Shown here: positions 22,434 to 33,965 of the stretch, one piece after another
Position numbering within the stretch: position 1 is the first letter of the stretch
Layout: each line of letters starts with the position of its first letter
NCBI RefSeq assembly: GCF_900172235.1
Contig: NZ_FWFQ01000008.1
Span: 62,001-126,000 of the forward strand
From: Pseudoruegeria aquimaris
GTDB lineage: Bacteria; Pseudomonadota; Alphaproteobacteria; Rhodobacterales; Rhodobacteraceae
Reading direction: 5' to 3'
Length of the DNA stretch: 64,000 nt
Notes under the pieces: model-generated
Told to the model about the DNA's origin: nothing
What the model saw: only the letters and a program-made list of their open reading frames with translations
The model's database searches: none
Position numbers and translations under genes: made by a program

Positions 22434-22559
22434 CAACTTTGTTCCTGAAAATATCCCCGCCGGAGGCAGGAAACCGGCGCCGCCTGCGGCGCCGTGCACC
22501 CTTGGCAGACGGGCCCGGCGGCCTATCCTTCTGCGTGTTGATCATTGCCGGAGGGTCCC

Positions 22560-22871
22560 ATGCCTGCGCTCGTTCGCCTCTATATCACCCACAGCCTGAT
22601 CGGTTTTGGCATCTCCGCCGTCTTCGTGGCCATCCTTCTATGGTTCAACGTCGCCAACCTCTGGCACCTCGTGACCCATTCCAACATCGGCTGGATGGCC
22701 GTGGCGCTCTTGGTGCTGTTCAACGGGATCGTCTTTTCCGGCGTCCAGTTCGGGATCGCCATCATGCGCATGGCCGAGGAGGACGATGACGCGGGCGGCA
22801 AGCGCGATGCCGTGCCTCTGCGTGCACCTCTGGCAGTGCCCGTCCCGGTGGAGAGCCACCGGAAGGGCTGA
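22560..22871 (+). CDS. Small two-TM membrane protein
   Basis: A 103-residue protein with two hydrophobic helices (about residues 5-30, HSLIGFGISAVFVAILLWFNV, and 43-66, IGWMAVALLVLFNGIVFSGVQFGIAI). An acidic/basic cytoplasmic tail, RMAEEDDDAGGKRDA, ends in a Pro/Val-rich stretch. The ATG at 22560 is preceded by CCGGAGGG. It resembles short conserved membrane proteins of Rhodobacteraceae, but I cannot name the family. It stands alone between nusB and the candidate RNA. Confidence 0.7.
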   Translation: MPALVRLYITHSLIGFGISAVFVAILLWFNVANLWHLVTHSNIGWMAVALLVLFNGIVFSGVQFGIAIMRMAEEDDDAGGKRDAVPLRAPLAVPVPVESHRKG

Positions 22872-22895
22872 AGTGGCGGGCCCGCAAACGCAGCC

Positions 22896-23049
22896 GTAGA
22901 GGTTGACGAATTCCCGAGGACCTGTGTGAACAGGTGGGCGCCAGGTAACGCGGCCAGGACCGTGACAGAGCCAGCTCCCTCGGATTTGCTTAAGGCCACC
23001 GGAATTGAACCGTAGTATACGAGAAGGGCAGCACCCGCCGGGGCTCTAC
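22896..23049 (+). ncRNA. Candidate structured RNA between convergent genes
   Basis: This stretch between two convergent genes has no coding potential and folds by eye into one elongated structure. The outer helix is GTAGAG (22896-22901) with CTCTAC (23044-23049). Inside it GGTT/AACC (22901-22904 with 23008-23011) and AATTCC/GGAATT (22909-22914 with 23001-23006) are nested. Further in are CGAGG/CCTCG (22915-22919 with 22978-22982), and a perfect hairpin ACCTGT-GTGA-ACAGGT at 22920-22935. The loop region holds GCCAGGTAACGC, which is also present in RNase P RNA, but the remaining RNase P core motifs are absent. It does not match my memory of tmRNA, 6S or SRP RNA. Strand and ends are uncertain. 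Confidence 0.45.
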
Positions 23050-23086
23050 ATAGGGTGCGCGCGCGGCTTTGCCAAGCGCCCGCACA

Positions 23087-23962
23087 TCACGAAAGCGGCG
23101 CAACATCCGCGAAAGCGCCGCGCAGGGTCCGGTAGACGTCGAGGTTGAAGCGCACGAGGGTGGTGTCCTCACCCGCCCAGGCCGAGGACAGCAGGCATTT
23201 CACCATCGCCCAGCCCGCGATCCGCCCGCGCTCCAGCCCGGTGGCCTGCGCGAACAGCGCCAGCCGCCCGGTCTGGCAGGCCGGATCGAGCCGGCCCACG
23301 AATCCCTTCGGGTTGCGGAAGGCATTGGCCAGTTCGAAAGCCGGATCGCCCCGGATCCCCTTGGGATCGATCGCGACGCACCCCCAACCCGTCCGGATCA
23401 CGTTGTCGTGGTGGAGATCGCCGTGCAGCAGGCAGGGGGTGGGGGCCGTGTCCAGCAGGCGACGCGCGATCTTCCGTGCCGCATGCAGGGCGGCCACATC
23501 CTCCGGCTGCCACCAGTCCGCCGGCTTGAACGCCCACAGGCCTTCCGTCCAGGCGGCGAGATCCGGGAAATCGGTCTGGGCCGTCGTCTTGCGGGAGAGC
23601 AGGCGGCCGGCCAGGTCGGCCAGTTCCATATCCGCCAGCCGGTCCGCCCCCTGCCGGGTGATGTCGCCGAGCGCGGGGCCGTCCAGCCATTGCAGCAACA
23701 CCCGCCCCGGTTCATGCGCGAAGCACCGCACCACGCCGGGGCCCGCCATCTCCGCCAGCCACGCCGGCGCGCGGGCCTCGTTTCTCGCGTTGCCCTCCCG
23801 GAACAGCTTCAGCGCGGCCGGCCCCCAGCGGCTGGTCACGCGGTAGACATCGGCGATGTCGGTCCGTGCCACATGTCGCGGGTCGCCGATGCGCCACGCG
23901 GGCGGCAGATCGCCTGGCAGTTTCGGGGGCGGGGCTGTGAGGGGAAATCCGGGCGGCGACAT
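23087..23962 (-). CDS. APH(6)/hydroxyurea-kinase-like phosphotransferase
   Basis: A 291-residue kinase-fold protein of the APH_6_hur type, the family of streptomycin 6-phosphotransferases. The catalytic loop is LLHGDLHHDNVIRT and the metal-binding segment is CVAIDPKGIRGDPAFELANAFRNP, the family hallmark (IDPKG in place of DxG). KLFREGNARNEARAPAWL holds the ATP-binding lysine region. I prefer the ATG at 23962; a GTG at 24007 would add 15 residues. Chromosomal members of this family in environmental bacteria usually have an unknown metabolic substrate, so antibiotic resistance should not be assumed. It is divergent from mmcB. Confidence 0.85.
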   Translation of the reverse strand: MSPPGFPLTAPPPKLPGDLPPAWRIGDPRHVARTDIADVYRVTSRWGPAALKLFREGNARNEARAPAWLAEMAGPGVVRCFAHEPGRVLLQWLDGPALGDITRQGADRLADMELADLAGRLLSRKTTAQTDFPDLAAWTEGLWAFKPADWWQPEDVAALHAARKIARRLLDTAPTPCLLHGDLHHDNVIRTGWGCVAIDPKGIRGDPAFELANAFRNPKGFVGRLDPACQTGRLALFAQATGLERGRIAGWAMVKCLLSSAWAGEDTTLVRFNLDVYRTLRGAFADVAPLS

Positions 23963-24035
23963 GGCCGCCTGATCGGACCACGCGGGCAGGGCCCTGTCAA
24001 TTCGCACCCGCTTTCGCGCGAATCTCTTGCGTTTT

Positions 24036-32834: not shown

Positions 32835-33965
32835 TCAGGCGGCCGTGCGGGCCGCCGTTTCGTTGATCTTGAAAACCATATCAAGCAGAAGCGCGGCAGG
32901 GTCAAGGTTGACGGCCCGCCCGTGGCGCATGCGCGCCCCGAGGCTCTGCTGAAGCTCCGCCCAGCGGTGGCCGGCGCGCACGTCCGGCGCTATCCGGGCC
33001 AGCAGCGCGGCTTCGCCGGGGGCCGCTTCCACGGCGGGCGGGCCCATGACGGCCGCCCGCGCGGCGCGCGCCAGGAAAAGATCCATCATCGAGAAGAGCA
33101 GATCCTGCCGGGCCTCCTTGCCCTTTCCGGCCGCGCTCTCGGCCAGAGCGATGGCGAGCGGGCGGTCGACGCGGGGCAGGCCGGAGAACAGCTTGATGAT
33201 CGCGCGGTAGAGGGCGAGCCCGTCGTTGTGGATCAGCCGAAGCGCCTCGCCGACGGACCCGGCCGAAAGCTCGGCCAGCGCCTCGGGCGAGGCGATTTCG
33301 GTTTCGCCGGCCTGCGCCAGCGCCGCGCGCATCGCGTCGGGTGCAAGGCTGCGGCAGCGCAATTCCCGGCAGCGGGAGCGGATCGTGGGCAGCAGCCGCG
33401 AAGGCTGGTGGCTGATGAGCAGCAGCACCGCGCCTTCGGGCGGCTCTTCGAGCTGCTTGAGCAGGGCGTTGGCGGCGTTGCCGTTCATCTCGTCGGCGGA
33501 ATCCACGATCACCACGCGATGGCCGCCATCGGTGGACGAAAGCGCGAAGAAGGAGCGCATCCGGCGCACCTCGTCCACGGTGATCTCCTGGCGCAGCGTG
33601 CCCGTCTTCTCGTTGACCGGGCGCTTGAGGGAGAACAGCCCTGGCTCGGCCCCCGCCAGCAGCCTGCGGGCCACGGGGTGCTCGGGATCCACGTCGAGGC
33701 GATCGGGGGCGGGGGGCGCATCGCCGAACAGGCCGCCGCCGTCCTGCGGCGGGTTGGCCAGCAGAAAACGCGCGATCTTCCACGCCAGCGTGGCCTTGCC
33801 CACCCCGCGCGGGCCGGTGATGAGCCAGGCGTGGTGCAGGCGGCCGGTGGTGTAGGCGTCGAGGAAGGCGGCCTCGGCCTCTTCCTGCCCGATCAGGCAC
33901 TCGGTTTCGCGCGGATGCGGCGCGCCGTCGATGCGGTCTGGCTCGGGCGGTGGCGTCTCGTTCAT
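32835..33965 (-). CDS. holB: DNA polymerase III subunit delta'
   Basis: A 376-residue clamp-loader subunit with the AAA+ core: HAWLITGPRGVGKATLAWKIARFLL (P-loop GPRGVGKAT), VVIVDSADEMNGNAANALLKQLEEPPEGAVLLLISHQP and the sensor-1 region RLLPTIRSRCRELRC. The delta' zinc-finger cysteines are not present in the usual position, as in many alphaproteobacterial versions. The C-terminal collar domain follows from about residue 230. Its start overlaps tmk by 4 bp, the classic tmk-holB arrangement. Confidence 0.95.
   Translation of the reverse strand: MNETPPPEPDRIDGAPHPRETECLIGQEEAEAAFLDAYTTGRLHHAWLITGPRGVGKATLAWKIARFLLANPPQDGGGLFGDAPPAPDRLDVDPEHPVARRLLAGAEPGLFSLKRPVNEKTGTLRQEITVDEVRRMRSFFALSSTDGGHRVVIVDSADEMNGNAANALLKQLEEPPEGAVLLLISHQPSRLLPTIRSRCRELRCRSLAPDAMRAALAQAGETEIASPEALAELSAGSVGEALRLIHNDGLALYRAIIKLFSGLPRVDRPLAIALAESAAGKGKEARQDLLFSMMDLFLARAARAAVMGPPAVEAAPGEAALLARIAPDVRAGHRWAELQQSLGARMRHGRAVNLDPAALLLDMVFKINETAARTAA

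Follow-up and report, generated by a model that had tools for sequence, protein, structure and literature searches.

What RNA, if any, lies in the non-coding stretch between two convergent genes of Pseudoruegeria aquimaris, and on which strand is it encoded? A preliminary description of this locus, which lies in a window of 64,000 nucleotides (the whole stretch of DNA that was analysed), proposed an undescribed structured RNA read on the plus strand at 22896-23049. The placement between convergent genes was correct, as an open reading frame on the plus strand ends at 22871 and a kinase reading frame on the minus strand has its stop at 23087. Our results indicate that the minus-strand interval 22875..23039 almost certainly is ssrS, the 6S RNA gene of P. 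aquimaris, an RNA of ~165 nt predicted to run leftward from ~23039 to 22875. Its ends were inferred from the sequence, the start being the GGCGGG that opens the closing stem and the end its partner CCCGCC. The interval first proposed overlaps this RNA, but it omits the 3' arm of the closing stem (22875-22895), while its positions 23040-23049 lie upstream of the inferred start and belong to the promoter region. The locus holds a real, conserved structured RNA, yet a long-known one that the preliminary description had not recognised as 6S; being 6S RNA, on the strand opposite to the one first read, it is therefore an ordinary finding and not an undescribed RNA.

When the whole window was scanned at Rfam gathering thresholds, two tRNAs were the only matches. 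A permissive scan of 22801-23200 gave three matches up to E 10, and the highest by bits was 6S RNA (RF00013) at 22919-22997 on the minus strand (18.9 bits, E 0.084). That comparison pointed to the correct family and strand, but at a score far below the gathering score of 46.4 bits, which is a detection cut-off and not a biological property. The remaining two matches, to an IRES family (13.1 bits, E 2.6) and to Vax2os1_2 (10.1 bits, with an E of 0.061 that is slightly lower than that of 6S), belong to eukaryotic families, as judged from their names, and were taken as chance. That 6S match alone is no more than a lead, and RF00013 searched against the organism's own genome gave no match at E 0.001.

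The low score was found to be common in the family Rhodobacteraceae. RF00013 matched 111 of 120 family genomes (own genome included) at E up to 1, with filters stricter than those of the own-genome search, and only 22 of these matches were over the cut-off. Apart from the own genome, 31 of 60 relatives carried a DNA homologue of the minus-strand region 22880-23060; 30 of the 31 belong to the same family, and 28 were among the 120 genomes searched with RF00013 (G001, G002, and G047 were outside). Of the 28 relatives covered by both searches, 27 had a 6S match that coincided with the DNA homologue, and five of the coinciding matches (G004, G012, G013, G025, and G032) were over the Rfam cut-off. 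The exception, G018, was one of the nine family genomes in which RF00013 found nothing at E up to 1. Likewise, cmscan with all Rfam families on 20 of the 29 fetched homologous loci placed 6S over the cut-off in three (L006, L015, and L021), at the homologous place. One of these loci also contained a cobalamin riboswitch (L015:684-876, minus strand, 136.4 bits), which is unrelated to the 6S finding. In another relative, G010, RF00013 matched on two separate contigs (46.3 bits, L054, and 42.2 bits, G010:C266:2950-3108), which points either to an additional copy of 6S or to a mixed assembly, the genome being 82% complete and in 330 contigs.

We then compared the window with a covariance model, R1, of 156 positions and 40 pairs. 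This model was built from an alignment (A1) of 30 RF00013 matches (L031-L060), one genome per genus with the window's genus excluded, comprising 22 sequences over the Rfam cut-off and eight just below it (44.8-46.3 bits). R1 matched the window over its full length at 22875-23037 on the minus strand with 145 bits and an E-value of 3.7e-31; the tool itself describes E-values from this model as rough, which leaves the bit scores unaffected. Two congeners scored 144 and 147.5 bits. A second R1 match in the window (33037-33107, minus strand, 15.5 bits, E 0.1) was taken as chance. The window, the two congeners, and 11 loci picked by hand from the 30 RF00013 loci fetched also fell into one common alignment.

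The preliminary description had argued that the complementary segments it saw were unlikely to arise by chance. Folding of the single sequence does not bear this out, since neither strand of 22880-23060 folded better than its dinucleotide shuffles (minus strand, -55.9 kcal/mol, z = +2.05; plus strand, -62.9 kcal/mol, z = +0.07), and the energies by themselves favour plus, the wrong strand. Because single-sequence folding gives no support, the case rests on comparison with relatives, and it was this comparison that upheld the structured RNA first proposed while moving it to the minus strand. In the A1 consensus, 97.2% of 1200 cells were paired, as compared with 35.0-55.3% in slid versions of the alignment, and 13 of the 40 pairs were changed on both sides. 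The covariation score was 0.239, as compared with a mean of 0.127 in shuffles; none of 500 shuffled alignments reached the observed value on any of five measures. The controls comprised the shuffled and slid alignments plus an independent fold of the other strand. The covariation figures support the 6S structure without proving it alone, since the consensus was itself obtained from A1 and shuffles can be outscored by sequences that are merely related. According to one published account (PMC8414754), 6S RNA has a closing stem, a large central bulge, an apical stem, and a small hairpin opposite the 5' central bulge. The first three were present here, and every one of the six consensus helices had at least one pair changed on both sides. 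The small hairpin was present as helix 6 at 22920-22935 (ACCUGU-UCAC-ACAGGU, minus strand, on the 3' side of the central open region), with 100% of cells paired and one pair changed on both sides; this hairpin, of six perfect base pairs and a GTGA loop, had been noticed on the plus strand, where it reads ACCTGT-GTGA-ACAGGT.

Could the same region instead encode, on its plus strand, an undescribed small RNA specific to the family? Apart from its slightly lower single-strand energy, such an RNA could draw on the 10 of 26 consensus pairs that were changed on both sides when the reverse complement of A1 was folded independently, although most of those helices appear to mirror 6S helices. The two independent folds differed markedly. 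The minus reading gave -41.07 kcal/mol and 40 pairs, with 979 Watson-Crick, 187 G-U, four A-C, and 30 other cells, whereas the plus reading reached only -24.25 kcal/mol and 26 pairs, with 725 Watson-Crick, 12 G-U, 21 A-C, and 22 other cells. Since A-C cells outnumber G-U cells on the plus strand even when it is given its own structure, the RNA is placed on the minus strand, where the 6S matches and the promoter-like pattern described below are also found. We therefore consider a plus-strand small RNA extremely unlikely. The preliminary description had left the choice between a family-specific small RNA and a fragment of a known class that it did not recognise, and only the part about an unrecognised known class stood.

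A degenerate 6S pseudogene would explain the low Rfam score, 18.9 bits where 46.4 are required, and the window does carry small insertions relative to R1. However, the R1 match is full-length at 145 bits with only two positions marked for non-standard pairing. The R1 search of the own genome, for which completeness is given as 99.98%, scored 150 of 1340 first-look candidates and gave no other match at E 0.001. At the DNA level the locus is 95% and 94% identical to those of the two congeners, promoter-like elements are present, and 98 of the 120 family genomes are likewise without a match over the Rfam cut-off; a pseudogene is accordingly very unlikely. As for other known RNAs, the word GCCAGGTAACGC, which the preliminary description linked to RNase P RNA, is indeed present, starting at 22940. 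Nevertheless, RNase P RNA, tmRNA, and SRP RNA were absent both from the three matches up to E 10 in 22801-23200 and from the window's gathering-level matches, and ARAGORN found two tRNAs and no tmRNA in the window. We regard the resemblance to RNase P as a short shared word, and the chance that the stretch is an RNase P RNA fragment, or that it is tmRNA, SRP RNA, or some other known RNA besides 6S, as negligible. An intact 6S RNA gene on the minus strand remains our reading of the locus.

Upstream of the start of the closing stem, many relatives shared the motifs CTTG and CTANNT. A promoter-like pattern written after the sequences had been viewed (TTG, 17-20 nt, TANNT, 4-12 nt, closing-stem start) fitted 43 of 54 distinct loci, the other 11 being without it, as compared with 18 of 5400 mononucleotide-shuffled stretches. 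In the window, the pattern is represented on the minus strand by a -35-like element, TTGGCA (23075-23070), also seen upstream in relatives, followed after 17 nt by a -10-like element, TATGTA (23052-23047), which contains the shared TANNT and ends 7 nt before the inferred RNA start near 23039. Within 22500-23500, a simple sigma-70 scan gave no promoter for the 6S RNA and did not pick up the TATGTA element, and a terminator scan of the same interval found none. As a member of its family, the 6S RNA would be transcribed as an abundant RNA of its own; what was seen here is the conserved promoter-like pattern.

On the 3' side, a small membrane protein gene (22560..22871, plus strand) is convergent with the 6S gene and ends 3 nt from the 6S 3' end. 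Its probable ATG is at 22560, within an open reading frame listed from 22545; its membrane character was judged by eye from the sequence, and neither Pfam nor NCBIfam gave a match to the protein at E 0.001. When ~3 kb loci were searched with tblastn, a homologue of this protein was found in 32 of 60 (29 of 54 without duplicates), in every case on the opposite strand and on the 3' side of 6S, several hundred bases away in some. Homologues of nusB and mmcB were also common neighbours of 6S in these loci. In the window, the kinase reading frame (23087-24007, minus strand), of the APH(6)/hydroxyurea family, sits between the 6S gene and mmcB. It matched PF04655 at 105.4 bits, where Pfam requires 27, and the NCBIfam APH(6) model at 109 bits against a cut-off of 325; among the 60 loci, its tblastn homologues at E 0.001 were confined to the window's genus (L001-L003).

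Taken together, these results very probably describe an annotation gap and not a novel type of RNA. In this genome the curated Rfam model misses the 6S RNA, which a family-level model finds at high score, and the convergent small membrane protein gene next to it may be co-regulated with it, as is reported for Rhodobacter sphaeroides. No match exceeds the Rfam 6S cut-off in 98 of the 120 family genomes, so annotation relying on that cut-off would omit the gene there; the practical use of a family-level model such as R1 is that it recovers the gene in this genome at high score.

In stationary phase, 6S RNA reduces transcription from housekeeping promoters. Two publications describe the family as binding the RNA polymerase-sigma70 holoenzyme and being released by the synthesis of pRNA (PMC8998176; PMC10406553). 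Homology and covariation identify the RNA here; by analogy with the family, the 6S RNA of P. aquimaris would bind the same holoenzyme, would dampen housekeeping promoters once cells are in stationary phase, and would be released once the polymerase makes short pRNAs from it. Compared with RF00013 (6S / SsrS), the P. aquimaris gene is alike in its minus-strand match, its closing stem, its open central region with a small hairpin on the 3' side, its apical stem, which begins GGGAGC, and its occurrence as one match in the genome. It is unlike RF00013 in falling below the Rfam cut-off, a trait shared with most of the family genomes searched. A further comparison is with R. sphaeroides, whose reported gene arrangement, as given in excerpts, agrees with that of the window (PMC8414754; Elkina et al., 2017, RNA Biol 14:1627, via PMC8414754 and PMC8998176). 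In the excerpted account of that bacterium, cells without 6S RNA grew more slowly under high salt (PMC8998176). A salt stress-induced protein gene lies by its 6S gene, and the small membrane protein of P. aquimaris may be the orthologue of that protein.
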